Below, piece after piece: positions 181 to 34,311 of a DNA stretch of 64,000 nt. Source of the stretch: Crambe crambe. Lineage: Eukaryota > Porifera > Demospongiae > Poecilosclerida > Crambeidae. The position numbers and the translations under genes were made by a program. The DNA lies in NCBI GenBank assembly GCA_963924555.1, contig OZ004593.1, positions 6,630,480 to 6,694,479 on the forward strand, given 5' to 3'. Position 1 is the stretch's first letter; each line of letters starts with the position of its first letter. Below the pieces are notes generated by a model, which saw only the letters and a list, made by a program, of their open reading frames with translations, was not told where the DNA came from and made no database searches.

Positions 181-11611
<11,431 letters not shown>

Positions 11612-12089: not shown

Positions 12090-12694
12090 TTACTTACTAC
12101 CCTCTTTCTTTCTCCTCAGCACTTTGCAAATGGCTTCAGCAGTGTGTGTGTCCCCTCCCTCACAGCACACTTTCAGCAGGTTCCCATACGTGCAGTGGAG
12201 GCCCTTCTTCTCTTTCCACTTCCTTAAAACCTCTCTCCTGCAAATAATAAATGAACAAACAAATGGATGATCCCCCCTCAATAGTGAGCAGTTACTAACC
12301 TTAGGAGAACAGGCTGGTTGCTGTATAAGAACTTGATGTCGTATATTTCAGTGCGAGTGAGTTCCAAAGGAGTTGAGAGCTTCTCTTCCCAGTCCAAGAT
12401 GTGCTCAGCTATGGTGTTCAGGTCCCTGTCCACTCCCCCATGGTCCCAGTCCAATTGCTGCTCCAGGAATGGGCGAACACAGGCAGGCAAGGATGACACG
12501 TGGACGTCAGCAGCTAAAAAAATTAGTTTGCTCCAGGCTACATCTGAAGTGTCATGACTTACATTTAGGGATATTATCCTTTTTTGATTTGAGTTGATCC
12601 TGTTCTGCAACTTTGAGCATCTCTTCAATACAGCTCATGAGTTCAGCAGCATTGTTCACAAGCATGTCCACAGCCATCAGCCAATCTCTCTCAT
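12090..12694 (-). other. Death domain exons
   Basis: Exons 12694-12563 (helical linker), 12513-12300 and 12237-12090. The last two encode a six-helix death-fold pattern: [16 protein letters not shown], then a phase-2 intron, then [19 protein letters not shown] and [11 protein letters not shown]. The W-K...TY.NLL..A..I..VL signature is typical of UNC5, ankyrin and NF-kB death domains. An intron inside the death domain at the same phase is present in the duplicate copy. Confidence 0.87.
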
Positions 12695-15600
12695 CTACAT
12701 GATTATGATCATGCTAGATAGTTACATATATGCTGGCTTCTTGTACCTTCACAGTGCTTCAGTTTGACCATGGCCCCTATTTTCAGCTGCTGAGAAGTAG
12801 TGATAACTTTGGAAATCTCCATTTCTATGTTCTTCACAGAACATTGATTAGTGGAATAGTGGACTAGACTATATACTGTATCCATACCTTTGTACTTTCA
12901 GTGGATTTGACTATTGTGTCTGTTTGACTCTGTATCTGTTCCACTGTCTCCACAAGTAATTTCATAGAACTTGGGTCACTGAAATAATCAGATATTATGT
13001 CTGACTCTATAGCTAGCTAGGTACAATGTAGCCTCGTTCCCAGGCTCTCAGTGAAGCGGGAAATGTGGGGGCCTGGGAACAAGGCTAGGTACAATGTGAC
13101 TAGCATACAATGGAACCTTCAATAATAGACACTTTTTTGCCACAGTTTATCCTTTTTTGGAGTGTCCTTTACTGATAGGGACCTCCCCATGCATAGTAGT
13201 TATACAATCATGATTTTGGGCTTCTAACTCTCTATGTTGCATGCACAACTATAATACATACTGAACAAGCCTGTCCACCTCCTTCATGAGACTGATCATC
13301 ATTTTTATACTGATCAACAGATCACTATTCCTCAAGCTTCTTGTGTTCAATATTTTCCTCTCCAATGAAGCCTTGGCTTTCTGTAATATCATCAAGAGAT
13401 AGCAATCATATCAATGATTGAAGTGGGCACATCTTATTCCTATCACCTGAAGAAGCTGAGTATTAACTTCCAGGTGAGTCACAGTTGGGGGTGGTGAAGC
13501 TATATACATGCAAAATGCAGAATATTAAATTTTAGCCAAGTCAGTTTTAGCAGTAGCCAATTAGGTATACTTGGAATAGTTGGAATGGGTATCTCAAAGT
13601 TGCACTCCTCGTCCAGCCCAGTGACACTCAGTGTCATCAACTCTGCCTCCTCAGCTCCACCCCCTGTGCAGGTGATGAAGATCCTGGGAGGGTAGTCTGG
13701 TATCTTATCAGCTTTCTTGGACATTATCTCTGGACGGTCGATTTCTGCCTTTGAAATCTAACAGTATAGATGCTATTAAATTATCAATAATAGTCAAAGT
13801 TGCAAGGGAGGGAACTTTTGTGGGAACAGTGGAGCCTCCATGAGCCAATAAAGGACACTTTGAAAGAGGACAAACCTTTTAACAATCTAAAAGTACCCTT
13901 TGTATAATAACAGGAAACCGAGGACAAAAGGTTGTCAGAGGTACTGTTGTTCACACTTTCCTTCCCCATGTAAGGCATGCACTCACCTTTGGTTTATCCA
14001 TTATGCACTTGGCTTTGTTCCCTTTGACAAGAGTGACTTTATCGGAAGTGATTTTCAATGCATTGTAAGTGGAGCAGTTCTCAGCCTTACATGTCATTCC
14101 AGTGTAATGACTTGCAATGTAGTCATCACAATACTGTAAAAAATGAGGCAAAACCAAGGTTCATAAAATAATGACATACCTAGCTAACCTTACCTGGGTG
14201 TAGTACATTTGGTAAGGGCACATGCAGAACACAGCAGTGACCTTAGTAGCTTCCAATGACTTATAAAGTCGTGCTGAATACAATTTTTTAATTTCTTTTG
14301 CTACAAGAAGAAAAGTTGTCAGTATTACTAATTATAACTAACATGAAGATGTCAATACCTTCTGTCTTTTTCTTTCCAATTCTCCACCAACTGAACTGTT
14401 TAAGCGCTATCTCCCCCACTTGATATCCAGCATCATCAATGCTATATTTCACCTCGATTCCTTCAACCTCCTTGAAGACATAGACAGGATTGGATCCCCG
14501 GTATTCAGGATCTGAGCTAGCCCTCAAGAACACCATGTCTTTGCTATCATTATCACTCTCCAGATTGGCGTAGTGTTGCATCCTCACTATGATAGCTTTC
14601 CTCAGTTCAGTTTCCTTGCTAATTTCAATGAGATAAGCTGGACTAGCTGGTTCTGTATCTTCAGGCATCTCAAAGGATCCAGAGAAACTGGGCTGAATCA
14701 TCATGTCCAGCGATTCATCTGGTAAAACAGAATCTTCAGGAATGAGTACAGATATTCCCATATCCTCTCTGTAGTCAAGTTCCTGTCTTTCACACGAGAT
14801 TTTTTCAGAAAAGATTTGATTTTTGACCACCATAATTCCAGGATATTTCTCATCTTCACAGAGAACTACTATATAATGGAATCGCTGAAACATTCTCTTG
14901 ATCCCTTGAATATCTTCTCTATAATAACTTTCACATTAATTTATAACACTAGACCACCCATTGGGCTTTGAAATTAGGAATTTAGGCATCAAGTGAACAC
15001 ACGGATAGCTACAATTGGCTTATTATACCTTTGCCCTCTTCCGTAAGTGCAGAGTCTACACCATCTAGCTCCTGCCTCTGCAGGTCCTTTTGATGACCTT
15101 CACATGAATAAAAGAATTTAGCTAAACATGTTATCTGCAGGAGAATTATGTCAAATGTTGCTCTCACTCTCTTTCCATTCTGCCAGTCGTGATTCTTCCT
15201 CCCTGATCTGCAAGTTTTGAATTTGTAACAGAACTTTAAAAAAATTTTTTTAACTAACTTGATTGTCTAGTTCCTTTTTGCCAAGCTCAATTTTTTGATC
15301 AAGAGTTGCCCTTTCATTTATAATTAGCATTTTTAGCTTGTTTTCCTGACTCTCCTGGTAGCTCTGAAGCAATTCCTGTTCTTGATACAGCTGCTTTCGA
15401 AGAGCTTCCTGTTCTGCTAGTTGCGCCTCATCCAGTCGGACCTGCAAGTTTTAGGCATAATCTGCTGCTTGCAAGCCACATGGTAATATTTAGGTGAATC
15501 ATCTTACAGTTTGTTGCTGTGCCATGTCAGCAATTGTCCTTTCATACTGCATGGCTAGCATGGCAAGCTTCCTCTGTTGCTCCTCCTTCAATTGTAGGAA

Positions 15601-18600
15601 GACCCCTTTCTTCTTGTCTTCAGGCAAAGTAGCTGCCATCTGCTTCACAATGGCATCGTATTGCCTACGTTGGATCTTTATCGTATCATTGTATTGTTTC
15701 TTGATCTGTAGCTCCTTCTCCTAAGAATTATATAGAAGAATTTATTACCTAGCTCGTACATATATACAGAGACTCAAAGAAGTATGTAGGGATGATGTCA
15801 CCTGCTCCATATGAAGCTGACATTTCACCTAGATCCACTAGAGGCAGGAGATAAATTTTCTATTAGTGCAGATGATTACCCGCAGAGACTTGGAATGTTC
15901 TTTAAGTTCCCGGACGTGTTTCTTACGTAGTTCCTTCTCTGCCCTCTTTTTAAAGTCAAGTTGGTTATCCCATTCACTGGCATGCTGTCGGCTCAAATGG
16001 TCTTCCCTCATTTCATGAAGGGAATTTAGTTGGCGACAGTGGAGCTCTTGGGTGCTGGCGAGCTGGCGCTCTCTCATTTCCTGTTTAGAGTCCTTAAGGG
16101 TCTGTGCTAAGTCCAACTCCTGAAGGGAGGAAGAAGCTAGAAATGATACTTATAGGGAGAGTCAAGTTAGCCTAGCTTACCTTTTGCAGCAGTTCACTTT
16201 CAAAACTCTGTCTCTCTTGCATGATCTTTTGTTTGAACACCAACAAAGCTTTGTCAGCTACTTCTTTGAGTTTCTGAAGGTGCTCCTCTTCATTGACTTT
16301 CTGTTGCTGCACCAGTTCCTTCTTCTTATCATCTGAGAACTGCTTTCTTTGTGCATTTGATAGACCAACATCCTTTTTGAGCTTCTCCTTGAATGCATTC
16401 ATGGCTGATACATAATCTCTCTTTTGTCTTGCCAAGAATGACTTCATATCAGACTTCAGTTGATCCTTTTGCTTTTGGGATAACTTGCGTTCTTCGTCCA
16501 TTTCTTTTTTGCTCTGTATGAAAAGGTGATAACTATCATTTAAGGCATAAACCAATGGACCCCATAACCATTATAGTCAGTGAATCAATGGCTGCATTAG
16601 AAAACTACCTGCTTTTTCAATTTGGTCCTATTCTTTGAGCGAAGCCTCTCTAGATTCTTTTCATAAGTGATTTTGAGTAGTTCCAATTCCTCTTCCTGTG
16701 TTCTAAAGTGGTTGGCCATTGTTTTCTTGTGCTGGATCTCCAGTTTCTGCATCTAAAGTGGAAAGTAGCTACTCAATACTGTCATGGAAAGATAGCTAGA
16801 TGGCCATACAATTGTACCTCACGTTTATGTTTGGTCCTTAACCTTTTGTATCCTTGCATTTGCTCCCTCAGCTCAGACTGCAGTCCATCTTCTGCTTGTT
16901 TTGATACCACATGGTGTGATTGCAAGGTAGAGAAACCATCGGGATTGCCAGTCTGAAAGAAAAAGAAGATAAAAGGAGTGGGAGGAAGTGGGAGGAAGAG
17001 AGAGGAAGAGAGCGGAAGGAGAGGGAGAGAGAGAGAGAGAGAACTCAATTTAGAGACCTAAGGAATTAATACACGTACTGGTTTCCCAGCCTCAGACTCA
17101 TGTGAAGGAGAAATGCTTTGAATGGAAGCTGTGCCAAGACTAGCACCTTCTCTATCCTTGCTTGCAGTGTTGCAACTGGCCTGTGTATCTCTTCCCTCAC
17201 CTTCCACCATGGAGGATGGCCTACTGACATAATATACATCATAGAGATTATAGAACTGGGTGTAGAGCATCACCCTAGTGTTAATAATTTCTTAATTGAT
17301 TCATCGTATACAGTACTTCGTCACCACACCTTTGGGATTCAACTTCTGCCTTGTCTTCTTTGACATTGGTAATGGCTCCATATAAAAATATCTTCTGCAG
17401 TCTCTTGTGGCTGCGGTTGTTGTCATCCATTAATCTGACTGCTTCTTGTGTTCGGAGTACTAGATGGTGTAGGATGTCTGTGTTCTCTGAGCTCCGTGAC
17501 AGAAACTCATGCTAAAGACAATTAGATATAATAAAAAAATTATGGCCTCACTGCTTGCCAGGTAGAGAGGGAAGGAAGGAATTAGTTCCCCAAATTGTAA
17601 TTTTCTCTATAGCCTTTCCAACATGCAGAGATAGGGTACATTTCACTCAAATTACATTTAGCTAATACTTCAGTACCAAAATATCACAATTTGAAACATA
17701 ATATACAAGTTCACTCTAGCTTTACATTGAGCAGGACTTCTGACGATGGTCTATCTCCTGCTTCCCTCGTCAGGCAGGCAGAAATGAAGCTGATGAATCT
17801 GTCAGACCAGTTTTCTGGGTGTTGTAACTTTGGGGGGTCATTTGAAGTTATGTAGTACAGTACACTCATAGGACTCATGTGAGAAAGAGGAGGTTTCCCT
17901 TCAGCTGAGATGCCATGGTGGAAGACGAGAATTTTAGCTAATGGTCGAAATGACTGCAGCTAAAACTTACCCAGTTCTATGCATGTAATTCCCATGGACC
18001 AAATATCAACCTATATATAGAGCATATATAGATGGGGATATGAGTAAGGGTTCTCTCCTAACACACCTTTGCGTCATAAGTGCCTTCATCCATGGCCAAA
18101 ATGACTTCAGGTGCCATCCTGAAAAATGAACTTTCACTGAGCATGTTCAGTTCAATTAACACATGCAGCCTACCAAAGTGGTGTTCCAGCAAAGGAATTA
18201 TAAGGGGAAGAGCTGGCTGATGCTGATTCAAACCCAGCTAGTTTCACCACACCTTTATCTGTGAGCAAGATGTTGCCTGCCTTGACGTCACGATGGATCC
18301 AATTGTTGGAATGGATGTATGCTAGACCCTATACAACAAACAACAGAGTATTAACTCATGAAAAATCTTATCACTTCTTGCACATGCACACACTGTCAAG
18401 TGACAACCATAAACTACGCATGCATAGAATCAGATTTTGGCCCATTGGACATGCACAATGACGTTTATTACGCATGCCTAGTACATGGTTGTCGCTTGAT
18501 GGTTGACGACCAGAGTTTCAAGATTTTCTAAAACCGCAGTATTAGCTATACTTACTGATATCGTTCCACTAATAATAGCACTGATCTCCAATTCTTTCAA

Positions 18601-19852
18601 AGGATGTTCATGTACTGCAAACATTAATAAGGTCAGATTGTTGACAATATCCAGCTTGATATGAAGTGATAATTATTAATGAGGCTAATAGGATTCCTTT
18701 GGTGTGTGGGGTGGTCTTGTGAACCAGACCCTATGCACGAAAAAGCGGAAGGGTCTGATGAGTGTGCTATACCAGTTTTGTTGCAGAGGAATTTGATTAC
18801 ACGCCCGAATATCATTAGTAGTAACGTGCGCTCTCTTGTTGCTTTCTCTTAGGCGGTATGTTATGTTGATTGAAGCTGCTACCTTTGCTATCTCTTACTA
18901 GTGTGTGGCATACCTTCTACAAAGTCAGCTACAGAGCCTGCATAGTGTTCCATCACAAGCTAAAAGAGGGAGAAATAATTATAACAAGCATCCACAAGTA
19001 CTGTAAGGAAGAATACTAGATGTACCCAACAGTTCTGATCCTTGAGGTACCCTCCCTTGTACTGGATACAGTTGTCATGTCTAAGGTTCTTCAGAAACTC
19101 CACTTCCTTGACGATATCTTCATATTTCTGGGTTAATAAATCAATGCGTAGCTATAGATGAACATACTTAAGGCCACTATTAATAGAATGATTGTTTCCT
19201 GTCCACCGCCCGCGTATTGAAAATATCACCGCATCAAAAAATATTATTACTGCCTAGCACCTGCCATTGCTCATGCGCGCAGTAGAGCGCGCACATTACA
19301 TGCAACTCTTTTTGAGAAAGCCCGTAGACTAGTGAATGATGAACCCTTGAGACAAACAACGAAGCAGTAATAGAATAATTATAATAACCGCCCGCCCGCA
19401 GCAATTGTGGATGTCTTCTTCGACAGGAAACTATGATTCTATAAATAGTGGCCTAATAGGGCTATAAATTAATACAGGAATGTAATTCCATCCACACTAG
19501 GGAGGATTCCACCAACCACAATGAAGGAAATGGATGTAGCTAGCACTCAGGGCATACTTTGGCATACCCACCTCCTCCGACTGGCTTCCAGTAAAGTTTA
19601 TCTTTTTGATGGCCACCATTTCATTGTTGTTGTAAGAATTTCTTACCTGTAAAAGGAATGCCATAGCTAGCTTGAAACTTTAGAGTCCTAGATAGCTACC
19701 TACCTACCTAACTAGCTAGATAAGATCTTGGTGTTTTAATGTCCTATACTCCTTACAAAGTAGTACACTGTTCCGGGACCATCACGGCCTATCTCCTTCA
19801 GATCTATGAAAATGCTTTCAGGATCTTCCGATCTTAAAAGTTCTTCCATCAT
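12090..19852 (-). CDS. TAO-kinase-like pseudokinase fused to ZU5 and death domains
   Basis: A single 31-exon model, 4374 nt (1457 codons plus stop), phase-consistent throughout. Residues 15-280 match the TAO (MAP3K) kinase domain. Residues about 384-821 match the TAO C-terminal coiled coil ([48 protein letters not shown]). Residues 845-1030 form a ZU5 domain, followed by a region that may be a UPA domain, helical linkers, and a death domain (about 1355-1450). TAO kinases normally end after the coiled coil at about 1000 residues. The glycine loop and DFG are altered (see kinase entry), suggesting impaired catalysis. Start: two adjacent ATGs at 19852 and 19849 in the family's usual place. Stop: TAA at 12090-12092; a block at about 11895-11945 conserved in the sister copy may be an alternative last exon. 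It shares a promoter region with a decayed SDR copy. Likely a cytosolic scaffold in stress or death signalling; that role is inferred. Confidence 0.85.
13024..13092. repeat. Short foldback element TAGCCTCGTTCCCAGGC
   Basis: Inverted repeat with arms AGCCTCGTTCCCAGGC and GCCTGGGAACAAGGCT flanking about 30 bp. It lies in an intron of the TAO-ZU5-death gene. Related sequences sit in introns at 29402-29459 and 31886-31950. Probably a MITE-like unit. Confidence 0.65.
14194..15097 (-). other. ZU5 domain exons
   Basis: Exons 15097-15029, 14916-14359 and 14300-14194. ZU5 hallmarks: [19 protein letters not shown] (strand and turn), [20 protein letters not shown], then VRMQHYANL, matching the usual L.KPV.V..QH pattern, and [16 protein letters not shown]5 with UPA and death domains occurs in UNC5, PIDD and ankyrins. 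The 14194-14300 exon and those at 13987-14133 and 13571-13757 (ending FEIPIPTIP) could be a diverged UPA domain; this part is uncertain. Confidence 0.8.
15168..17511 (-). other. TAO-type linker and C-terminal coiled coil
   Basis: Exons 17511-17312 (end of kinase fold and linker), 17223-17079, 16952-16818, 16752-16609, 16513-16181, 16119-15880, 15828-15802, 15720-15508, 15441-15259 and 15207-15168. The encoded segment is Glu/Lys/Gln-rich and aligns by eye with the whole TAO kinase tail in order. It is therefore a complete TAO protein body rather than a kinase domain alone. The 17312 donor was chosen over a donor five bases earlier because only it keeps the next exon ([12 protein letters not shown]) in frame. 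Confidence 0.82.
17726..19852 (-). other. TAO-like kinase domain with GFE in place of DFG
   Basis: Exons 19852-19757, 19646-19572, 19127-19026, 18959-18914, 18614-18556, 18328-18174, 18118-18067, 18010-17971, 17904-17726. The VAIKK lysine (K46), the helix-C glutamate (KEVEFL, E65), HRDVKAGN (138-145) and [20 protein letters not shown] are kept. DFG is replaced by GFE (158-160; context [13 protein letters not shown] versus the family LADFGSAS), removing the metal-binding aspartate. The glycine loop reads GRDGPGTV (22-29), with Asp in place of the second Gly. By family knowledge this predicts a pseudokinase or a very weak kinase that may still bind nucleotide. Confidence 0.88.
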
Positions 19853-20167: not shown

Positions 20168-20760
20168 CCGGGTGACTAATGTGCATGTGCAGCCTAGCTA
20201 GAGTGATCATCAGACCTGTATTGTCTTATACCTATGCTTGAGCAATTGATCTATTAATAGGCCATTGAGTGAAAGAACTGGAATCCACAGCTGAGGCAAC
20301 TGGCAAAACTTCAGCAGAGAAGGAGATGAAATTGGGGTATCTTCTTCTGGACCTCTCCTCCTTCCAATCCACCATAGACTTTGTGCATGCTTTCAAAGAA
20401 AAGAATCTCCCTCTCCACATCTTCATCAATAGTGCTGCAGTGTATTCAGTACCTTATAATGCATGTATGGTCACTGACTTGAATTAGCTATCAAAGCATT
20501 GACTATGGTTAGATGGATAGACAGTAGAGTACAAATGTTTTTCATCTCAGTCCCATGTTGCTGACCCTTGAACTCCTCCCAGTCCTCTTGGATACAGCTG
20601 TCTCATCAGGTGATGGATGCATACCGTTATCTTCTGTGGGACACTACGAGGCTCTGTCCTTCAACCTTGCCAAATTCAACCCTTCAGAGGTTGGATACTT
20701 ACCACAACTCCAAGCTCTACAATGTAGCTAAGTGCCAGCACAGCTATTGAGTAGCCAGTA
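20168..20760 (+). pseudogene. Decayed short-chain dehydrogenase copy
   Basis: Matches exons 2 and 4 of the intact SDR genes at 25261 onward. The promoter-like segment (20168-20215) and the end of intron 1 (GATCTATTAATAG at 20248) are recognisable, but exon 1 with the nucleotide-binding motif is absent. Exon 2 (20262-20457) has lost bases, so the [10 protein letters not shown] frame runs into TGA. The donor after CCTTATA is mutated (ATGCATG instead of GTGCGTG). Exon 4 (about 20551-20732) has lost bases within the GRIILVSS strand. It is head to head with the TAO-ZU5-death gene, like the pair at 25145/25261, so it is best read as a relic of an ancestral SDR partner. Confidence 0.8.
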
Positions 20761-21159: not shown

Positions 21160-24100
21160 TTAAATTTTGGATAAATACATTGCGGTGTTGCTGTAACTTT
21201 TACTAACCATCCTTTGCTTCAGCACTTTGCAAATGGCTTCAGCAGTGTGAGTGTCCCCTCCCTCACAGCACGCTTTCAGCAAGTTCCCATATGTGCAATG
21301 GAGGCCCTTCTTCTCTTTCCACTTCCTCAAGACCGCTCTCCTGTAAAAAAACTAACATGCTAACAAACTGAGCATTGGAGATTGCTAGTTCAAGTGGGAC
21401 AAGGTTGTTCCTTCATGCAATTTTAGGGTTATTATTATCATGATAATCCCTCCTCCCCTCCCTCCCCCTCCCCCCTCCCCCGTGCCCTGTGTATTGTATT
21501 GTAATTGTAGTGAAATCTTCGAACAAGGGGACTCCGAAAAGCAGCCAAACTCTCTACAACAGTTAAACTGGATGGAACAAAATGACATTTCCTATAATAT
21601 TATATAACCTCCGAGAAGGTCAAAAACCCTGTCCCAAATGTTGGCTGCTGTTCGGTGGTTTCACTGCACAGTGAGCATGGCTACTGACTGTAGGAGAACA
21701 GGGTTTTCGAGTTTGAACTGCCTCTTGAGGGTCGATGTTTCGTAGTATTTCAGTTCCAACTGAGTCGAGAGCTTCACTTCCCAGTCCAGCATGTGATCTG
21801 CTATGGTATTCAGGTCCTTGTCCACTCCCTCATTATCCCAGTCCAATTGCTTCTCCAGGAATGGGCGGACAGAGTCAGGCAAGGTTGATATGTAGTCATC
21901 AGCAGCTGGAAAAAATTAACTATTAGATTAGTTTGCCCCAGGCTACGTATGACTTACATATAGGGGTATCGATATCATCCTTACATACAAAGAATTGTTC
22001 ATCCCGTTCAGCGACTTCAAGCATCTCTTCAATACAGCTCATGAGTTCAGCAACATTACTCACAAGCATGTCCACAGCCACCAGCCAATCTCCCTCATCT
22101 ACATATGATCACATAGATGAAACTAGCTAGTTAGCTACACATGCTGGCTTCCTGTACCTTCACAGTGTTTCAGTTTGGCCATGGTCCCTATTTTCAGCTG
22201 CTGAGAAGTAGTGATAACTTTGAAAATCTCCCTTTCTATGCTCTTCACACAACATTGCGGTTAATGAGTAATAGAATAATGGACTACAGTGAAACATCCG
22301 AACATGAGGACTCCAAAAAGCAGCCAAACTCTCTAGAACAACAGTTTAACTGAATGGAACAAAATGACCTAAATTATTATAACCTCCAAGAAGGGTACAA
22401 AGGTCAAAAAACCTGTCCTGAACTTGGCTGTTGTTTGGAGGCTTCACTGTATTTAATTATGCATACCTTTGTATTTTCAGTGGATCTGACTATTATGTCA
22501 ATTTGAATCTGTATCTGTTCCACTGTCTCCACGAGTGATTCCATAGAACTTGGGTCACTGAAAATGTAATACATTATTATGCCAACTAAATTAGGTATAG
22601 CTAATGTGACTATATGCAGTGAATAATGGACACACTTGGGGCCCAGCTTTTTGTCCTATGTAGAAAGGTTATCCTATTTTAGAGGTTTTTTTTTTTGTTT
22701 TTTTTGTTTTTTTTTGTTTTTTTTGTTGTTTTTTTAGTGTAAGAGGTTTTTTCTCTTTCAGAGTATCCTTTTCCTTTATCACTCAGAGATTCCAGTAGCT
22801 ATAGGTTTCATATGTGTCCATGTAGATAGCTAATCATGATAGGGACCTCCCCATGCATGATAACTATTAGAGACCATGATTATGAGCTTCTAACTATTAC
22901 GTACTGAACAAGCACCTCCACCTTCTTCATGCGATCGATTATCATTCTTATACAGATCAATAGATCACTACTCTCTGTCAAGGTTCTTGTAGTATCCGAT
23001 ACCTTCCTCTCCAATGAAGCCTTGGCTTTCTGTAATATCATCAAGAGATAGCAATAAAGTGGGTTAATCTTATTTCTATCACCTGAAGAAGCTCAGTATT
23101 AACTTTTAGGCGAGGGATTGGTGATAATGGTGAAGCTATAGCAAAATTATTATTATTATAGACCAAGTCAGTTTGAGCAATAGCTAGCAGTGTTCTAGCC
23201 AGGATGAATGCAAAGAGCGGGAGGCAATAAGAAGGTTTAATTAGTATAATGATTCTAATTCAAGGTTGGGGATGGGGAGCACCACTCTTTGGCTAGAACA
23301 CTGCGAGTGGCCAATTATACTTGGAGTGGTTATTGGAATTGGTATCTCAAACTTGCACTCTTCGTCCAGCCCCTTGATTCTCAGTGTCATAAACTCTGCC
23401 TCCTCAGCTCCACTCCCTGTGCAGGTGATGAAGATCCTGGGAGGGTAGTCTGGTATCTCATCAGCTTTCATGGACATTTCCTCTGGTAAGTCAATCTCTG
23501 CCTTTGAAATCTAGCTAGAATCATTCAGTACAGATGCTAATGCTGTAATTCATGTACTAAAGATATAATTCAGGTGGTTTGTAAGTTGTAAATAATTTTC
23601 ACACAGGAACAGTGTACGAAAATATTAAAAGCAAATTAAGTAGCTAAATCCAATATCATGCGGAGGTTGCACTATATTGTTGTTCACATTAATTTTATCC
23701 CCACAAAAATATTCTTCTATGTCAGTTGCTCACTTTTGATTTATCCATTATGCACTTGACTCTCTCCTCTTTGACAAGAGTGACGATATCAGAAGTGATT
23801 TTCAATGCACTGTAAGTGGAGAAGCTGTCAGCCTTACACGTCATTCCAGTGTAATGACTTGTAATGTATTCATCACAAAACTAGAACAATTAAATAAATA
23901 AATCAAGAAAGAGATAAATTCCATGAAGTAAAGCAAGCTACATTGCATAGGTACCTGAGTATAGCACGTTTGAAAAGGGCACATGCAGAACACAGCAGTG
24001 ACCTTAGTAGTTTCTAATGACTTATAAAGTCGTGCTGAGTACAATTTTTTAATTTCGTTTGCTATAAATATGCAAGAAAAAAGTCATCAGTATTATGTAT

Positions 24101-25145
24101 TATTCAGTATGGCTAACACGACGAAATTGATACCTTTCTTTCCAATTCTCAACCAACAGAACTGTTTAAGCGCTATCTCCCCCACTTGATATCCAGCATC
24201 ATCAACTCTATATTTCACCTCGATTCCTTCAACCTCCTTGAAGACATAGACTGGATTGGACCCCCTGTATTCAGGATCTGAGTTAGCCCTCAAGAACACC
24301 ATGTCTTTGCAATCATTGTCACTCTCCAGACTGGCATAGTGTTGCATCCTCACTATGATAGCTTTCCTCAGTTCAGTTTCCTTGCTAATTTCAATGAGAT
24401 AAGCTGGACTAGCTGGTTCTGTATCTTCAGGCATCTCAAAGGATCCAGAGAAACTGGGCTGAATCACCATGTCCAGCGATTCATCTGGTGAAACAGAATC
24501 TTCGGGAATGAGTACAGATATTCCCATATCCTCTCTGTAGTCAAGTTCCTGTCTCTCACACGAGATCTTTTTAGAAATGATTTTTTGATTTTTGACCACC
24601 ACAACACCAGGATACTTCTCATCTTCACAGAGAACTACAGTACTATATAAAAATGTGGTTAATCTAATGTTATTTGCATTCACTGATCCCTTGAACATTA
24701 TCTTACTCTTTTTTCAGTTGTGTTTCTTCCTTTCTGATCTGCAGTTGTAGAGGTTTAAACTGCTTCTTCTTCAACCAACTTGATTGACTTGATTCTTTTT
24801 GCTCAATTTTTTTGATCAAGATTAATTTTGCCTTTTGTTTTATATGCTGCATCCTTAGCTTCTCATCCTGATCCTCCTGGAACCTCATCTGCAATTCCTG
24901 TTCTTGATACTGCTGCATTTCATCCATTTTGATCTGCATGGTTTAGAGTTACAGTGGAACCTCCTATAAAGGACCCTCCCAATTCTTATAAAAAGAAAGA
25001 AGTGGGTCTGGCTGCGCAAGACTACTAGAGGCATACAGGAGATAAATTTCTGTTTATTAAATAGTGCAAATTAAATGATTACCTGCAGAGACTTAAAATG
25101 TTCTTTAAGTTCCAGGAGGTGTTTCTCGCGTAGTTCCTCCGGACT
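21160..25145 (-). CDS. ZU5-death protein, kinase-less partial duplicate of the TAO fusion gene
   Basis: Exons match those of 12090-19852 from the late coiled coil onward: 25145-25083 (partial, LREKHLLELKEHFKSLQ), 24933-24707, 24642-24134 (ZU5), 24061-23955, 23880-23734, about 23512-23327, about 23137-23084, 23029-22905, 22557-22467, 22242-22158, 22098-21958, 21905-21689 and 21340-21160 (death domain). All phases are kept and no internal stop was found. Two exons of the parent are gone: the one matching 15029-15097 is missing, with the frame restored by a new phase-2 junction (KKD-TVVLCEDE), and two coiled-coil exons are merged. Homology stops at 25145, just 115 bp from the SDR ATG at 25261. 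No in-frame ATG exists in the 25083-25145 exon, so translation may begin at the internal ATG near 24927 (MDEMQQYQEQ). Either a functional short death adaptor or a young 5'-truncated copy. Confidence 0.72.
21500..21672. mobile_element. MITE-like element with TAGTGAAA..TTTCACT ends
   Basis: Starts TAGTGAAATCTTCGAACAAG and ends GGTGGTTTCACTG, giving imperfect terminal inverted repeats. About 170 bp, in an intron of the duplicated death-domain gene. The interior (GGACTCC, AAAAGCAGCCAAACTCTCTA) matches the element at 22281-22453. No protein is encoded. Confidence 0.65.
22281..22453. mobile_element. MITE-like element with TACAGTGAAAC..CTTCACTGTA ends
   Basis: Terminal inverted repeats TACAGTGAAACATCC and GGAGGCTTCACTGTA, about 173 bp, internally similar to 21500-21672. 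Solo ends of the same type (ACAGTGGAACCTCC) occur at 24951 and near 4725 and 13835, pointing to a dispersed non-autonomous family. Confidence 0.7.
22688..22738. repeat. Poly-T with scattered G
   Basis: About 50 bp of T runs interrupted by single G in an intron of the duplicated ZU5-death gene; on the sense strand it is poly-A. No function is visible. Confidence 0.8.
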
Positions 25146-25260: not shown

Positions 25261-26935
25261 ATGGGGAATAAACTGTCCTACCCTGATGCAGATCTCTCTG
25301 GGAAGGTGGTAGTGGTGACTGGAGGGAACACTGGCATTGGGTACGAGACAGCCAAAGGTCTGGTCAAGTTGGGAGCTCACACCATCATAGCCTGCAGGTC
25401 CAAGGAAAGAGCTGAAGCAGTAAGACAATTAAATCTACACTGTAGGTACCATCAGCTGATCTATTAATAGGCTATTGAGCGTATCAAGAAAGAACTGGAA
25501 TCCATAACTGAAGCAACTGATGGAGCTTCAGTGGCAGGGAAGGAGATAAAGTTGGAGTATCTACCTCTGGATCTCTCCTCCTTCCAATCCACCAAGGATT
25601 TCGTGCGTGCCTTCAAGGAGAAGAATCTCCCTCTCCACGTCCTCATCAATAATGCTGCAGTGTATTCAGTACCTTATAGTGCGTGTATATTGAATAGTTA
25701 GTCACTGACTTGCATTAGCTAAGCATTGATTGTGGTTATAGGAAAAACAATAGATGGATATGAATCTCAGTTTCAGGTAAGTTCATTGTATAGCAGAGTA
25801 CCTTATTGCTACAAAAATTTCCCTTTTAGATCAACCACCTTGGTCCCATGTTGCTGACCCTTGAACTCCTCCCAATGGTCTTGGAAACAGCTGCCTCATC
25901 AGGTGATGGACGCATCATATTAGTCTCTTCTGTGGGACACTACGAGGCCCCGTCCTTTGACCTTGCTAGGCTCAACCCTTCAGAGAACGAGTACTCAAGG
26001 TTGGATGCTTACCACAACTCCAAGCTCTATAATGTAAGTATTAGCAATCTGTTTATCATCGAGTAGCAAATACTAAAAGTCTATTTGCATTCACCTTGCC
26101 CACTATAATTGCTATAACATTCTCGATTCTTAACCAAATTTCAAATTTCAAGCACCAGCAGAGAGAGTGGATAATCAGCTCTCTGTTGATGCATTAAACT
26201 AAAAATTTGGTTACGAATTGAGAAAGTTATAGCAGTTATAGTGAATGATCAAGGGACAAGGTGAATGCAAAATGATTTATGTTCTATTGTGGCTGGAGAA
26301 TCTATTTTATGAACTGCACAACTTGTGCTTATAGGTTATGACAAGTTTTGCCTTGCAGCGAAGACTGCAAGAGAAGAACATTACGGTTTCTTCCCTCCAT
26401 CCTGGGATGGTGAGGAAGACAAGTTAAAGTTTGTTCCTGCACTTAAACCTGTAAAACTGTCACACTTTACAGGTAGACACTGAGATCTCTCGTGGAGTGC
26501 AAGATGTAAAAGTGGCATCGTTTTTATTAAAGGCCTATTTGAAAGGTAACCTTGGTCAGCAAATTTAATTCTGTTTTGCTTTCGATGTTATATTCTATTT
26601 TTTGGAAATTCTAATCATTGCAGTTGTTGGTCGTAAACCTCTTGAAGGAGCAGCCACCACTCTCAACTGTGCTGTGAACCCTGACCTCAACTCCCAACAG
26701 CATTTTTACTACGACAGCTGTCAACCTAAGGAACCAAGTGCTGATTCAAGGTGAGAGTTGTGGGGGATTAACAGTATCCATGCTAACCACTCAACGTTGT
26801 AGGAATGAAACATTTCAAGAGCAGCTGTGGACAAAGAGTTTTGAATTTCTGAACGACCACCTCTCAACAAAGATAGTGGGAAAATATGGGCCAAACAAAA
26901 AGCTTGAAGAACAGCTCTCCAATACGAAGCTCTAG
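25261..26935 (+). CDS. Short-chain dehydrogenase/reductase 1 (RDH/WWOX-like)
   Basis: NAD(P)(H)-dependent oxidoreductase of the SDR superfamily, nearest by eye to retinol dehydrogenase and WWOX-type SDRs; the substrate is unknown. Exons 25261-25419, 25471-25678, 25742-25776, 25830-26033, 26335-26409, 26473-26545, 26624-26750, 26803-26935; 337 residues. Cofactor motif [23 protein letters not shown], catalytic YHNSK, and SSLHPGMV after the active site are present. The start MGNKLSYP fits the N-myristoylation consensus MGxxxS, so the enzyme may be membrane-anchored. It ends soon after the conserved [12 protein letters not shown] block, without the long acidic tail of its neighbours, so it probably reflects the ancestral length. 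First intact member of a five-gene tandem array, head to head with the ZU5-death copy. Confidence 0.9.
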
Positions 26936-27098
26936 AAGCCAGGCAATACATAAAGCAAGATTGAATTTTTTTCTTTATAATTTGACAACTCGTGATATAA
27001 AGGTGATGATGAAACAAAAACAAAAATAAACCAAACAAAACTACAGCAGCAATAAACCAAAACAAAACAGTACAAGAGAAGATTGAATAATTTCATCT

Positions 27099-27107
27099 GC
27101 GCATGCG
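27099..27107. promoter_or_regulatory. NRF1-like palindrome GCGCATGCG
   Basis: About 49 bp upstream of the SDR 2 ATG, in the 220-bp gap between SDR 1 and SDR 2. That gap also holds AATAAA at about 27024, a possible poly(A) signal of SDR 1. Confidence 0.5.
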
Positions 27108-27155
27108 TAAACGAGCAATGGCCCCACCCATATTAAACCGTAGCTAAACACTAAA

Positions 27156-28071
27156 ATGGGGAATAAGCTGTCCTACCCTGGCGATGTGAGGCTTTCTGGA
27201 AAGGTGGTAGTGGTGACTGGAGGGAACACTGGCATTGGATACGAGACAGCCAAAGGTCTGGTCCAGTTGGGAGCCCACACCTTCATAGCCTGCAGGTCCA
27301 AGGAAAGAGCTGAAGCAGTGAGTTATTTACATGGTTTATGATCCATGGTTAGTATGGGTAGTACCACGGTATAAGGGAGGGGTAACATGCTTATTTATCA
27401 AGAGATATTTAATCAAGAGGTTAGGTCACTATCCTGTAATACAAGGACATTATTTTTTGTTAAAGTTCCATATATCCATGGCAACCACTACTCCAGGCTA
27501 TTGAGCGTATGAAGAATGAACTGGGACCTAAGACTGAAACAGCTGGTGAAGTTTCAGCAGAGAAGGAGATAAAGTTGGAATATCTTCCTCTGGATCTCTC
27601 CTCTTTCCAATCCACCAAAGACTTTGTGCGTGCCTTCAAGGAAAAGAATCTTCCTCTCCACATCCTCATCAATAACGCAGCTCTGGGTGCTTCTCCTTAC
27701 AGTAAGTGACTTCAGTGTTCATCTAAACAGCACACTGACACTTCATATTCATCATAGGCAAGACTTCAGATGGTTTTGAGTCCCTGTTCCAGGTATGGTC
27801 ATGTGGTCAAAATATATAGTAGACATTAGCACGTATACAGGTCAACCACCTCAGTCACATGTTGCTGACCCTTGAACTCCTCCCAATCATCTTGGAGACA
27901 GCTGCCTCATCAGGCGATGGACGTATCATATTCGTCTCCTCCTCAGTGCACACTATAGCCCAGCCATTTGACCCTAACAAGTTGAACCCCTCTGAAGAAG
28001 AATACAGGAGAATGTACGCCTATTGCAATACAAAACTTCACAATGTAAGCAGCTATTTCATTTATTTATTT

Positions 28072-28123
<52 letters not shown>

Positions 28124-29084
28124 TTTTATTTATCTCACAGGTAATGACAGGTTTTGCCTTGCAAAGGAGACTACAAGAGAAGTATATCACAGTTTCTTCT
28201 CTTCATCCTGGCTATGTAAGGAGGTTTAATAGCTAATTAAGCCTTACAGTTTTGCCTGTCACATATGTACAGGTTGAAACTGAGCTCAAACGTTCAGTTC
28301 AAGACTTGAAAGTATTTTATTTTCTGCAAAGCTTTACATCAAAAGGTAATACCAGGTACTTTATGAATGTCTACATAATTATTAATATAATTATTATCTT
28401 TTTCAGTTTTTGGGCGAACACCAGTTGAAGGAGCAGCCACCACTCTCAACTGTGCTGTGAACCCTGAACTCAACTCCCAGCACCATTTCTACTATGACAG
28501 CTGTCGACCTAAGGAACCAAGTATTGCATCCAGGTGAAATATAATGGGAATCTAATTTGGTATCTTTTAAAGGACTGAATGTAATTTATAGGAATGAAGG
28601 ATTTCAGGAGCAGCTGTGGGCAAAAAGTTTTGAATTTCTGAAGGATCATCTCTCACCAGAGACTGTGGAGAAGTATGGCCCTAGCAAACAAGAGGAACCT
28701 CCTCCCAGTACTGACCAAGTGGAAAGCCAACCAGAAGACCAGCCCCCACTTCTCAATACGGAAAGCAAACCAGAGGACCAGCGCTCACCTCCCAGTACTG
28801 AGCAGCAAGCAGAGGACAAGCCAGAGGACCAGCTTCCTGCAGAGAGCCAACTAGAGGACCATACTACTGACCAGCACCAACCAGAGGACCATACTACTGA
28901 CCAGCAAGAAGACAGCAAACCAGAGGACCAGCCCCCTACTGCCGACCAGCAACCATCTCCCGATCCCAGAACTGAGAAGCAAGCAGAGGGCAAGCCAGAG
29001 AACCAGCCCCTAAATGAATCTAGATCTGCTAGCCAGCAAGAAGACAGTAAGCCAGAGGAATTACCCTCTAGTACAGACCAATAA
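27156..29084 (+). CDS. Short-chain dehydrogenase/reductase 2 with acidic repeat tail
   Basis: Same eight-exon structure as SDR 1: 27156-27317, 27497-27701, 27758-27792, 27841-28044, 28141-28215, 28273-28345, 28407-28533, 28592-29084; 457 residues. [13 protein letters not shown], catalytic Y-C-N-T-K and SSLHPGY are kept. N-terminus MGNKLSYP fits the myristoylation consensus. The last exon extends about 140 residues past the catalytic fold as a P/E/D/Q/S-rich low-complexity tail with QPEDQP and [10 protein letters not shown] units. This is probably disordered and highly acidic. The acceptor of exon 5 follows a (TTTA)n tract. The stop codon TAA (29082-29084) lies inside an AATAAA hexamer, so the 3' UTR may be minimal. 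Confidence 0.9.
28053..28135. repeat. (TTTA)n microsatellite
   Basis: About twenty TTTA tetranucleotides in intron 4 of SDR 2, ending just upstream of the TCTCACAG acceptor. Confidence 0.9.
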
Positions 29085-29085
29085 A
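29080..29085 (+). terminator. Poly(A) signal AATAAA overlapping the SDR 2 stop codon
   Basis: The TAA stop is contained in AATAAA. Only 152 bp separate this stop from the next ATG, consistent with very short 3' UTRs. Its use is inferred. Confidence 0.45.
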
Positions 29086-29134
29086 AATCAGGGGGATAGC
29101 CCCTCTATTTTATTTATTTATTTTTTAATATAAG

Positions 29135-29144
29135 TGCGCATGCG
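29135..29144. promoter_or_regulatory. NRF1-like palindrome TGCGCATGCG
   Basis: Lies between SDR 2 and SDR 3, about 93 bp upstream of the SDR 3 ATG. Confidence 0.5.
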
Positions 29145-29236
29145 TAAAATGTCTGTCCCGCCCCCTTAGCTAGCTAGAGACCTAGACTAGACCTAGACGT
29201 ACTGGATGTTAATAGTCTCGAAACTAGCTTGATATC

Positions 29237-31579
29237 ATGGGGAATAAACTGTCCTACCCTGATGAGGATCTCTCTGGGAAGGTGGTAGTGGTGACTGGAG
29301 GAAACACTGGCATTGGGTACGAGACAGCCAAAGGTCTGGTCAAGTTGGGAGCTCACACCTTCATAGCCTGCAGGTCGAAGGAAAGAGCTGAAGCAGTGAG
29401 TGGTCTAGCCTCGAACCCAAGCTCTAAATTTGCGGGCCTGGGTTCATGGTCTTGTACCTTAGTCTAGTTATGCTTTGTGTGCTTGGAGCTGGCTGTGCCA
29501 GACTAGCTAGCTGATTGTGGGGCCAGTGGTCCAAGACAAAAATTAATGACTTACTATAAATCAATTGTAAGATGATGAAATTGACTGTACCTATTGCATC
29601 AGAGGTTTTAGAATGTTATGACTAACAGTCTGAGGATCAATTAAAGTGAAGCAAGGAACATTGGAGCCTGCTCAAGTACAGAAGAGTATATCCACTACTT
29701 TTTCATTTGCAGGCTATTGAGTGTATAAAGAGTGAACTGGATGCCCAGAGCAAAGCTGATGAAGCCAAGGCTAAGAATAAGAAATCTGAAGCAGTCGAAG
29801 CTGGAGCTGAAACTGGGACAACTGATGCAGCTTCAGCAGAGAAGGAGATAAAGTTGGAGTACCTACCTCTGGATCTCTCCTCCTTCCAATCCACCAAGGA
29901 TTTCGTGCATGCCTTCAAGGAGAAGAATCTCCCTCTCCATATCCTCATCAATAACGCAGCATTGTGTGCTGTACCCTATCGTGAGTCCTGGAAGTGTTTA
30001 CACCACTTGAGGTCAATTCTGTTTGTATAGGGAAGACTGATGATGGTTACGAGTCCCAGTTCCAGGTATGGTCATGTGGTATAGCTCATGGTCAAGTTAG
30101 CCAGACTGTATCTAATAAATTGATTGCATTAGGTCAACCACCTCAGTCACATGTTGCTGACCCTTGAACTCCTCCCGATCGTCTTGGAGACAGCTGCCTC
30201 ATCAGGTGATGGGCGCATCATATTTGTCTCCTCCTACGGACACTACCTAGCCCCGTCCTTTAATCCTGAGAAGTTGAGTGCCTCTGAAGAGGAATACAAA
30301 AGACTTGCCGCTTATAACAGTACCAAGCTCTACAATGTATGTTATCATTATTATTGGCTGTAGTGTTGAAGCAGCAATATCCTCACTCACTCTCTAGGTC
30401 ATGACAAGCTTTGAGTTGCAGCGAAGACTGCAGAAGAAGAACATCACAGTGTCTTCCCTCCATCCTGGTTATGTAAGTGTTGATTATGTAGAACCTTGAT
30501 ACTACAATGAAAGTTGTTGTGACTACATCTGACCATACACACCACTTCCTTGTATCAAATTTTATTACTGTGTAGCATTATTGTAAATCTCACACATGGC
30601 AGGTTCAAACTGAGCTAAGTCGTGGAATTCAAGACATGAAAGTACTAGCTTTCATTCAAAATGTCTCATCAAAAGGTACAGCATACCAATAGAAGTGTTA
30701 GTCCTCCTTCCATTTCACATTCCAGCCATTGAGTAATAGTTACATTGCAACAACACACAGTAAGTGATTGTTGATGAATTTTAAAATGCAGTTGTTGGTC
30801 GTAAACCTCTTGAAGGAGCAGCCACCACTCTCAACTGTGCTGTGAACCCTGACCTCAATTCCCAACAGCATTTCTACTACGACAGCTGTCGACCTAAGGA
30901 ACCAAGTGCTGATTCAAGGTAAGAGGAGATGATGGGAATCTAATATGGCATCTTCTAAAGGACTGAATTAATTTATAGGAATAAAGCATTTCAGGAGCAG
31001 CTGTGGGCAAAAAGTTTTGAATTTCTGAAGGATCATCTCTCACCAGAGACTGTGGAGAAGTATGGCCCTAGAAAACGAGAGGACCAAGTGGAAAGCCAAC
31101 CAGAGGACCAGCCCCCACCTCCCAGTACAGAAAGCAAACCAGAGGACCAGCCCCCACTTTCCAGTACAGAAAGCAAACTAGAGGACCAGCCCCCACCTCC
31201 CAGTACTGAGGAGCAAGCAGAGGACAAGCCAGAGGACCAGCCCCTACCTCCCAGTACGGAAAGCAAACCAGAGGACCAGCCCCCACCTCCCAGTACAGAA
31301 AGCAAAGCAGAGGACCAGCCCCCACCTTCCAGTACAGAAAGCAAACCAGAGGACCAGCCCCCACCTCCCAGTAGTGAAGAGCAAGCAGAGGACAAGCCAG
31401 AAGACCAGCCCCCACCTCCCAGTACTGAGGAGCAAGCAGAGGACAAGCCAGAGGGCCAGCCCCCACCTCCCAGTACTGAGCAGCAAGCAGAGGGCAAGCC
31501 AGAGAACCAGCCCCTGGATGAATCTAGATCTTCTGACCAGCAAGAAGACAGTAAACCAGAAGCTAATACAGACCAGTAA
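29237..31579 (+). CDS. Short-chain dehydrogenase/reductase 3 with [11 protein letters not shown] repeat tail
   Basis: Exons 29237-29395, 29713-29980, 30031-30065, 30133-30336, 30398-30472, 30603-30675, 30792-30918, 30979-31579; 513 residues. [18 protein letters not shown] and HPGY are conserved; MGNKLSYP start. Exon 2 is longer than in SDR 1 and 2 and encodes an Ala/Lys/Glu-rich insertion ([17 protein letters not shown]) before the [13 protein letters not shown] strand; SDR 4 shares this insertion. The last exon carries a clear tandem repeat of a 13-17 residue unit ([13 protein letters not shown] with EQAEDK variants), about 160 residues long. The nucleotide repeat unit is about 39 bp, so the tail length is expected to vary between alleles. 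Stop TAA at 31577-31579 overlaps AGTAAA. Confidence 0.9.
29402..29459. repeat. Foldback element copy in SDR 3 intron 1
   Basis: TAGCCTCGAACCCAAGC followed by GCCTGGGTTCATGG, an imperfect inverted repeat related to 13024-13092 and 31886-31950. Confidence 0.5.
31082..31500 (+). repeat. Coding minisatellite in the SDR 3 tail
   Basis: Tandem units containing GAGGACCAGCCCCCACCTCC and CAGTACAGAAAGC, period about 39 bp with longer variants. It encodes the [11 protein letters not shown] repeats. Similar but shorter or diverged units occur in the last exons of SDR 2, 4 and 5. Confidence 0.85.
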
Positions 31580-31622
31580 AATTTTTAATAGCTATTAATT
31601 TTTTATTGATAGAGTCTTAAAA

Positions 31623-31632
31623 AGCGCATGCG
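31623..31632. promoter_or_regulatory. NRF1-like palindrome GCGCATGCGT
   Basis: About 85 bp upstream of the SDR 4 ATG in a 137-bp intergenic gap. Confidence 0.5.
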
Positions 31633-31716
31633 TAGCAAAATGCCTTTGCTAACGTGTATACAGTCGGCATAATCAAACCAGCCTATTAACCTGGCGAGAC
31701 AGACTACCTTGATATC

Positions 31717-34156
31717 ATGGGGAATAAACTGTCCTATCCTGATGCGGATCTCTCTGGGAAGGTGGCAGTGGTGACTGGAGGGAACACTGGCATTGGATAC
31801 GAGACAACCAAAGGTCTGGTCAAGTTGGGAGCCCACACCTTCATAGCCTGCAGATCCAAGGAAAGAGCTGAAGCAGTAAGTGGTCTAGCCTCGAACCCAT
31901 GCAGGCTCTAAAATTTCGGGCCTGGATTCGAGGCCATGGTGGTCTTGTACTTTATGCTTTGTGGTTTGAGCTGGCTGCAGCAGCAGGTGTTGGTTTTATC
32001 TGAACATCAGAGGAAGTTTTAGAATGTTAGCTATGACTAATCAATTGAAGAAGGAACATTAAAGCCTGATCAAGTACAGAGGAGTACCACGTACCACTAT
32101 TATTAAAGAGTCACATGAATTTATTCATTCTAAAAATAGCGCTAAATCATTAATTTTTCCAAGTGAAGAAATACACGTCTCAAACTTCCAGCTGCTGAGA
32201 CATGGCTACCGGTAGCAACAAGAAGCTTCCTACAGGTCAGAACACCTTCAAAGAATTATTTCAACCCCTGACCTGGAAAGGCTGAATCCACTCAGCCATG
32301 TCACATTGCCACCAGCCAACCTTCAGACCCTAGACAAGTAGGATGAGCAAGACACTCATTCGAATTCCTAAGCGCTGCTCCAACTAGAGCACCAGCCATA
32401 TATATTTTAAAATTGGTGCCACGCTCAGCTGTTTTGTGGCATGGTAATTGCAGTGGCATGTAATTACATCCACTACTTTTTCATTTGCAGGCTATTGAGC
32501 GTATAAAGAGTGAACTGGATGCCCAGAGCAAAGCTGGTGAAGCCAATGCTAAGAAATCTGAAGCAGACGAAGCTGGAGCTGAAACTGGGGCAACTGATGG
32601 AGCTACAGCAGAGAAGGAGATAAAATTGGAGTACCTACCTCTGGATCTCTCTTCTTTCCAATCCACCAAGGATTTCGTGCATGCCTTCAAGGAGAAGAAT
32701 CTCCCTCTCCACATCCTCATCAATAATGCAGGATTATTTGCTGTACCCTATCGTGAGTCCTGGAACACATAGCAATTGTTTATACCATTTGAGGTCAATT
32801 CTGTTTCTATAGGGAAGACTGACGATGGTTACGAGTCGCAGTTCCAGGTATAATTCCCACAATATTGACTATAGCTATTAAAAAACTCCATTAGGTCAAC
32901 CACCTCAGTCACATGTTGCTGACCCTTGAGCTCCTCCCGATCGTCTTGGAGACAGCTGCCTCGTCAGGTGATGGGCGCATCATATTAGTCTCCTCCTACG
33001 GACACTACCTAGCCCCGTCCTTTAATCCTGAGAAGTTGAATGCCTCTGAAGAGGAATACAAAAGACTTGCCGCTTATAACAGTACCAAGCTCTACAATGT
33101 ATGTTATCATTATTATTGGTTGAAGCAGCAATATCTTTTATTCTTCTCACTCTCTAGGTCATGACAAGCTTTGCGCTGCAGCGAAGGCTGCAGAAGAAGA
33201 ACATCACAGTGTCTTCCCTCCATCCTGGTTATGTAAGTGTTGATTATGTAGAGCCTTGATACTATAATGAAAGTTGTTGTGACCACTACACAACACCTCT
33301 GTAGAGTCCCTGTAAACAGGTCAGATTTTATTCTTAAATTTTGTGTGTACAATAATGGGAGGTAATTCCAAACAGTGGGGTTCAAATATTTCAAAACTCC
33401 CCCGAGCTTATATACATGTATGAGCTCTTTTCCTCAGTAGTTCCACAAGCATTTGAACTGTTACCTCATCATTCACTTTACTCTATACCAATTCCAATAT
33501 CATCATAGTATTATTGTAAATCTCACACATGGCAGGTTCAAAGTGAGGCAGGTCGTGGAATCCAAGACATGAAAGTTGTAGCTTTCTTTCGGAATGTCTC
33601 AGCAAAAGGTACAGCATACCAATAGAAGTTAGTCTTCCTTACATTCCAGTCATTGATTAATAGTTACATTATAACAACGCACATTGTTAAAATGCAGTTG
33701 TCGGTCGTAAACCTCTTGAAGGAGCAGCCACCACTCTCAACTGTGCTGTGAACCCTGAGCTCAACTCCCAACAGCATTTCTACTACGACAGCTGTCAACC
33801 TAAGGAACCAAGTGCTGATTCAAGGTGAGAGTTGTGGGAATCTAATTTGGCATGGACTAAATGTAATTTATAGGAATGAAGCATTTCAAGAGCAGCTGTG
33901 GGCTAAAAGTTTTGAATTTCTGAAGGACCATCTCTCACCAGAGACTGTGGAGAAGTATGGCCCTAGCGAACCTCCTCCCAGTACTGACCAAGTGGAAAGC
34001 CAACCAGAGGACCAGCCCCAGCAAGAGAATAAATCAGAGCCTACTACAGACCAGCAAGAAAGCAGCAAACCAGATGACCAGCAGGAGAGCCAATCAGAGG
34101 AATCACCCCAGCAGCAAGAAGAGAGCAAGCCAGAGGACAAGCCTGCTGCTGACTAG
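31717..34156 (+). CDS. Short-chain dehydrogenase/reductase 4
   Basis: Exons 31717-31875, 32491-32752, 32813-32847, 32895-33098, 33158-33232, 33536-33608, 33698-33824, 33874-34156; 405 residues. TGGNTGIG, a canonical NNAG (NNAGLFAVPY, the only copy with Gly here), Y-N-S-T-K and HPGY are present; start MGNKLSYP. Closest to SDR 3 across exons and introns (same Ala/Lys/Glu insertion in exon 2), so this pair is the most recent duplication in the array. The tail is shorter (about 85 residues) and Q/E/S-rich rather than PPPP-rich. Stop TAG at 34154-34156. Confidence 0.9.
31876..32490. other. Intron 1 of SDR 4 with foldback and inserted sequence
   Basis: The left end holds the foldback-type sequence (31886-31950). 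About 32100-32430 is a segment absent from the matching SDR 3 intron. It contains a 26-codon open frame from an ATG at about 32202, with no recognisable similarity. It is probably an insertion; no gene is claimed. Confidence 0.5.
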
Positions 34157-34240
34157 CAAGAGAGTATCCAGAAGAATAATTTTAACACCCCCAGAAAACA
34201 TAATGCAATTCAAACCCTTATAGCTTAGAAGTAAATAGTC

Positions 34241-34251
34241 TACGCATGCGC
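34241..34251. promoter_or_regulatory. NRF1-like palindrome TACGCATGCGC
   Basis: About 61 bp upstream of the SDR 5 ATG. AATAAA at about 34259 lies between this site and that ATG. Confidence 0.5.
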
Positions 34252-34311
34252 AAACTTCAATAAAGCGTTACTGTACTAGGACGCAAAATAGCTAGCTGCA
34301 ACCTGAAGATC

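Follow-up and report, generated by a model that had tools for sequence, protein, structure and literature searches.

Kinase and Death domains are joined in RIPK1 and DAPK1, which carry the kinase towards the N-terminus and the Death domain at the C-terminus; both are active kinases, belong to other kinase families than TAO, and lack a ZU5 domain. In PIDD1 and in CARD8 and NLRP1, a self-cleaving ZU5-UPA (FIIND) module is followed by a Death domain or a CARD, and, according to the accessible part of one report, the cut falls at an HF/S or SF/S motif directly after ZU5 (PMC3210808). We analyzed a 64,000-nucleotide window from the sponge Crambe crambe (GenBank assembly GCA_963924555.1, contig OZ004593.1, positions 6,630,480 to 6,694,479; coordinates below are those of the window), in which a gene model, here termed gene A, shares with the TAO kinases (TAOK1/2/3 and Tao) the kinase domain and the full coiled coil but differs from them in that its DFG motif and P-loop are changed and its tail runs on into a ZU5-type domain and a Death domain.

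The minus-strand location and end points that had been assigned to this gene from the letters of the window alone (the original prediction) proved right (Table 1). All 29 introns of the model are GT-AG, the spliced frame is open throughout the 30 exons, and the window holds no N. The frame is phase-continuous, as had been claimed, but the length of 1457 codons given with it hangs on the acceptor of exon 20: acceptor 14865 (phase 1) yields 1442 codons and acceptor 14916 yields 1459 amino acids (aa), both in frame, and we prefer the former because the tail family described below uses the same acceptor. A further candidate acceptor at 14918 was dropped, as it breaks the frame. The predicted domain order of TAO kinase domain, TAO coiled coil, ZU5-type domain, and C-terminal Death domain was confirmed at the sequence level by matches to PF00069, alignment with a TAO gene elsewhere in the genome (on C19), PF00791 matches in relatives, and a match to PF00531. 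From its sequence, then, gene A is a real and unusual fusion locus, with a predicted pseudokinase rather than a stress kinase in front. The altered DFG and P-loop, two partial copies of the locus (copy B and a copy on C18), and the intact TAO gene on C19 go beyond what the original prediction contained.

Table 1. Features of gene A and of the adjoining duplicated block in the window
Feature	Position	Strand	Basis
Gene A, 30 exons, ATG 19852 to TAA 12090	19852-12090	-	GT-AG splicing
Exons 1-10: TAO-type kinase domain (aa ~17-272), first part of linker	17330..19852	-	Splice model, PF00069, PDB TAO2/TAO3
GFE (aa 158-160) replacing the catalytic DFG	18227..18235	-	Alignment to TAO2 and six TAOs
Exons 11-19: linker plus complete TAO coiled-coil tail (aa ~416 to ~846)	15029..17274	-	Alignment to C19 TAO
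Intron 19: coiled coil/ZU5 junction	14866..15028	-	Donor of exon 19 and acceptor both in phase 1
Exon 20: ZU5-type domain	14359..14865	-	Family alignments, PF00791 in relatives
QFS (aa 1003-1005) at ZU5 end: candidate F/S self-cleavage site of PIDD/NLRP1 type	14390..14398	-	Family motif comparison
Exons 21-23: conserved region at UPA position (UPA putative)	13571..14300	-	Alignment of 7 rows
Exons 24-28: linker, fold unassigned	12563..13499	-	Splice model; counterparts in copy B and C18
Exons 29-30: Death domain (aa ~1353-1430), stop 12090	12090..12513	-	PF00531
SDR-like gene fragment (label by eye), just upstream of the gene A ATG, in duplicated block	20272..20698	+	Alignment
Copy B: TAO coiled-coil remnants (exons 15, 17, and 18), then ZU5 to Death	21197..25138	-	Alignment

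The kinase domain of gene A matches PF00069 in Pfam (E = 4.2e-53), and its closest matches in the Protein Data Bank (PDB) are TAO2 and TAO3 (E from 3e-105 to 5.4e-102). In an alignment with six TAO kinases (the C19 gene and P0001 to P0005), 155 columns are invariant among the six; gene A keeps 122 of these and differs at 33. At two such columns, D158G and G160E turn DFG into GFE, and the residues that change the P-loop from GHGSFG to GRDGPG are also among the lost invariant columns, so that gene A has neither the DFG nor the GxGxxG hallmark of a TAO kinase. The VAIK lysine, the HRD aspartate, and the MAPE stretch are retained. We predict on these grounds a catalytically impaired pseudokinase, for which ordinary catalysis is unlikely; the domain should nevertheless fold like a TAO kinase and may bind partners, in the manner of STRAD, a STE20-family pseudokinase that acts by binding and that differs from gene A in having no coiled coil or death-fold tail. 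Given the GFE motif and the altered P-loop, direct JNK/p38 activation by the gene A protein is therefore unlikely. The earlier proposal of a stress-kinase scaffold joined to death-fold assembly thus stands for the fusion architecture but not for a competent kinase, although a scaffold or decoy role may still be possible. CASK, which is active with a GFG motif and without magnesium, provides a model for another reading, in which gene A is one gene whose kinase is active by an unusual route and phosphorylates partners recruited via the Death domain. The three retained elements and the constraint on the kinase region (see below) are what this reading has in its favor, but with both the aspartate and the glycine of DFG lost, the P-loop altered, and 33 of the 155 invariant TAO columns changed, we regard it as quite improbable.

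To place the TAO half, we searched the window's own assembly (143 Mb in 119 contigs). The coiled coil recovered 12 matches at two places, seven in gene A and five in the C19 TAO gene; the coiled-coil remnants of copy B and of the C18 copy lie below the threshold of this search. The C19 gene has intact DFG and GHGSFG motifs and ends shortly past the coiled coil, with an AATAAA downstream, and the coiled coil of gene A aligns to it over its full length (62.5% aa identity over 451 aligned codons). In a tree of 15 rows, the two genes are sisters (support, 100/100) with branches of 0.75 for gene A and 0.11 for the C19 gene, and the pair groups, again with support of 100/100, with P0001 to P0005, of which one is named Amphimedon (P0005) and another (P0004) has a gene name in what we take to be Ephydatia style. 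By this tree gene A is a fast-evolving sister of the C19 TAO gene, and its kinase placement and its TAO coiled-coil tail both assign it to the TAO branch. Between the two genes, the kinase region (300 codons) has a dS of 0.94 and a dN of 0.164 (dN/dS of about 0.17), and the coiled coil (451 codons) has a dS of 2.11, which is near saturation, and a dN of 0.27 (dN/dS of 0.13). Because most of the change sits on the branch of gene A, the low ratios speak for constraint on gene A too, and we consider gene A itself to be probably under constraint.

The Death domain at the other end was recovered when the C-terminus was scanned alone (PF00531, 27.1 bits, E = 4.6e-6, cut-off of 22.6); a Pfam scan of full-length gene A at E<=0.1 reported kinase models only and neither Death nor ZU5. 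In the PDB, the Death profile weakly matched the Death domains of ankyrin-2, CRADD, and FADD (E of 0.007-0.07), and its top match was THO complex subunit 1 (E of 0.0009). The 613-aa tail belongs to a large family, with at least 88 matches in the genome at no fewer than 68 distinct loci, where matches up to 4 kb apart on one strand were merged; both are lower bounds from the 72 of 669 candidates that were scored. PF00791 has 64 genomic matches, from which the window is absent; the relatives L005 to L008, which are 44-47% identical to gene A, pass its cut-off. As many as 24 of the 64 lie in one 340-kb stretch on one strand (G000 C3:7485116-7825440, +), and L005 to L008, the four read in it, have lost the F/S motif and carry KSLQLL or KSLRLL instead. 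The family's ZU5 exon opens in 18 of 21 rows, gene A and copy B included, with a phase-1 acceptor of AG followed by TTCT, TCCT, or similar; at L038 it lies one codon earlier, and L031 and L048 differ. At the end of ZU5, the F-S pair is retained in 19 of 22 family loci, 8 of them with HFS. Gene A and the C18 copy read QFSWW and copy B reads QFCWL, so that gene A keeps F and S but differs from HF/S or SF/S in the first residue. A glutamine at this position was tolerated in Nup98 (H862Q) and CARD8 (S295Q), as far as the available text of that work goes (PMC3210808).

Other family members may carry other fronts. Among 14 tail-family loci examined, the putative front matched an ankyrin query in 7, a ROC-like GTPase query in 2 (one of these is L050, which lies ahead of the C18 copy), and the gene A kinase in none. 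L046, L051, L052, and L056 had no front match. From an exon-by-exon scan of the genome for kinases near ZU5, which scored 125 of 1,704 candidates, no count was drawn.

The junction between the TAO and ZU5 halves recurs. On C18, one continuous alignment with window positions 15315-11414 (4,037 columns, 85.9%) takes in part of TAO exon 17, exons 18 and 19, the ZU5-to-Death region, and the beginning of the neighboring kinesin-like gene. Exons 18 to 30 are open there with splice signals kept, and exon 19 has one in-frame length difference of 9 bp. The tail regions of gene A and the C18 copy (632 codons) have a dS of 0.096, a dN of 0.029, and a dN/dS of 0.30, with 2 indels in 1956 exon columns vs. 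30 in 1084 intron columns. The C18 copy lies behind coiled-coil exons resembling a partial copy of the adjoining ROC-type gene. At this place (L050/L043, C18:775001-795000), a coiled-coil/ROC-type gene has a partial tandem copy, whose coiled-coil exons, read as in frame, precede the TAO-tail/ZU5/Death block, making it a possible second chimera. Copy B is separated from gene A by a dS of 0.184 and a dN of 0.115 (dN/dS of 0.63, 590 codons). Its exon 17-to-18 join is out of frame and QFC replaces QFS; it is probably broken at its 5' end, and as a second working fusion it is unsupported, given that join. The TAO-tail/ZU5 adjacency thus appears to be older than two later duplications and to date from before a dS of 0.18. 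Since copy B and C18 both show the junction again (on C18 within a single alignment), and the window lacks any N, an assembly break, which the original prediction had named as a possible refutation, is unlikely.

The account that we favor, and hold to be reasonably probable, is that gene A is one gene, a TAO duplicate that lost the catalytic aspartate, gained a ZU5-(UPA)-Death tail, and would serve as a regulated death-domain adaptor. Its anatomy, duplicate origin, constraint, tail family, and junction recurrence are read from the sequence, and exon 19 ends in phase 1, matching the phase-1 acceptor of the family's ZU5 exon. Several observations weigh against it. By chance alone, the frames would match at the junction in about 1 of 3 cases, and the single transcript is itself inferred. 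Exons 18-19 show no constraint between gene A and the C18 copy (6 non-synonymous changes and 1 synonymous), and the Death exons are only moderately constrained in the same comparison (0.43). Scanned alone, gene A's own ZU5 reaches 14.3 bits in PF00791, under the cut-off of 21, because of which the assignment rests on relatives and is weak. UPA was not detected in gene A by the Pfam scan, and the ZU5-UPA profile had four PDB matches (E of 0.04-1.7), none of them a UPA or ZU5 protein; an AlphaFold2 model of exon 20 from two sequences had a mean pLDDT of 30.5 and was not used further. A search of 5,599 candidates that resemble the tail in length gave no homologue of it at E<=1e-3, and therefore no second species confirms the fusion.

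Retention of intron 18 or 19 would end the TAO part at an in-frame stop (ESNI* and GIISQL*), and position 14893 offers an in-frame ATG from which a ZU5 gene of its own could begin. With the occurrence of the tail family behind other fronts, these features would suit two adjacent genes, of which the TAO-derived one would end at 15151 or about 15009 and the ZU5-Death one would begin within the modeled intron 19. However, the ZU5 exon opens at the family's own acceptor, which requires an upstream phase-1 exon; on C18, there is no in-frame ATG from the ZU5 exon up to the first upstream in-frame stop, and the retained-intron stops sit elsewhere. AATAAA and ATTAAA are absent from 15258-14866, a weak point, as they are absent also past the gene stop (12089-11600). 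We therefore consider two genes to be rather unlikely. That the whole locus is a decaying pseudogene would fit its fast branch and the degenerate look of copy B, which also counts against our account, but the 30 exons of gene A contain neither a stop nor a frameshift and the dN/dS ratios in kinase, coiled coil, and tail are low, and this we judge very improbable. We read gene A most readily as a ZU5-Death adaptor in which a TAO pseudokinase has taken the place of the original front.

Gene A shares its tail with ankyrin-type proteins and with the ankyrin-repeat-ZU5-Death loci of the same genome: the ZU5 domains of L044, L045, and L048 are 44-61% identical and the Death domain of L048 is 54-63% identical, the difference being the ankyrin repeats in front. 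When such an ankyrin-ZU5-Death relative was used as a protein query, nothing was recovered at E<=1e-3 among 7,955 candidates. With PIDD1, CARD8, and NLRP1, as far as the accessible account of them extends (PMC3210808), gene A shares a ZU5-type domain ending in an F/S motif and followed by Death; it differs in having a pseudokinase and coiled coil in front instead of leucine-rich repeats (LRR) or an NLR, QFS instead of HFS or SFS, and a putative UPA. It lacks the marks of a PIDD orthologue, an LRR front and two ZU5 domains: scanned in full length against Pfam (E<=0.1) it shows no LRR, and one ZU5-type stretch was found. That ZU5-Death proteins lack such a kinase, as had been stated, holds for TAO as far as we searched: the TAO part has 3,271 homologues, and none of the best 120 carries a ZU5 or Death Pfam domain. 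A protein with both ZU5 and a kinase is nevertheless on record. The accessible part of a report that also sets out the kinase-plus-Death layout of RIPK1 describes an amphioxus protein (XP_035662392.1) with repeats, a ZU5 domain (448-546), and then a kinase domain (956-1222), which resembles gene A in uniting kinase and ZU5 but is grouped with RIP kinases, has the kinase after ZU5, and has no Death domain in its table row (PMC9573974). Elsewhere, in portions of the respective papers, early-diverging animals are described as having NACHT-ZU5 combinations (PMC12909245), UPA-ZU5 is found fused to TRADD-N, with large TRADD-N expansions in Amphimedon (PMC8195603), and TAO kinase and ZU5 meet in one text as a TAOK2 knockout control and a cited ZU5 paper (PMC9623368). 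A literature search that reached a minority of subscription papers and no bioRxiv preprints found no TAO-ZU5 or TAO-Death protein.

We propose that an animal TAO kinase gene was duplicated in this sponge lineage, that the duplicate lost its catalytic aspartate, and that intron-phase-matched exon shuffling may have supplied it with a ZU5-(UPA)-Death tail from a large family of adaptors. A sensing, partner-binding, and probably dimerizing front would consist of the pseudokinase and the coiled coil; from general TAO biology, this front could in principle pair with the normal C19 TAO via the shared coiled coil. The ZU5-UPA part would hold the Death domain in a closed state and may undergo self-cleavage at QF/S, and an event at the TAO-like front could then release the Death domain for assembly with other Death-domain proteins. 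We infer the shuffling route, TAO pairing, self-cleavage, and Death-domain signaling. A more specific possibility, which we put forward tentatively and think unlikely, is an animal counterpart of plant NLRs with integrated kinase decoys: a dead, fast-evolving copy of a stress kinase might front an immune-type ZU5-UPA-Death switch, such that a pathogen factor attacking TAO-like kinases trips the Death domain, either through a conformational change that releases it or, as in NLRP1 and CARD8, because the self-cleaved front is destroyed. The loss of catalysis, the fast change, and the immune-like tail family are consistent with it.

The surroundings of gene A (gene labels by eye) include a kinesin-like gene on the minus strand (from about 11611 downwards) that starts about 0.5 kb downstream and whose first exon is included in the C18 duplication, and a long CT/GA simple repeat (~10850-11060) that is present too at the end of the C18 copy. 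Five SDR-like genes form a tandem array (25261-35158, +), of which the SDR-like fragment beside the start of gene A is a partial sixth piece; the duplicated block of copy B takes in the nearest of them. CDC7-like kinase exons lie at ~37000-38600 (-).

Gene A would thus be a case in which a member of an expanded ZU5-Death family in a sponge has received a module derived from a kinase as its new front. As a single genome shows the sister TAO gene, the tail family, and the intron phase that matches, the birth of a death-domain protein may be traceable one exon at a time. Provided that the protein is produced and acts in the proposed way, it would tie the TAO signaling branch to the assembly of death folds with no need of catalysis, and the idea that innate immunity in animals uses kinase decoys would become directly testable.

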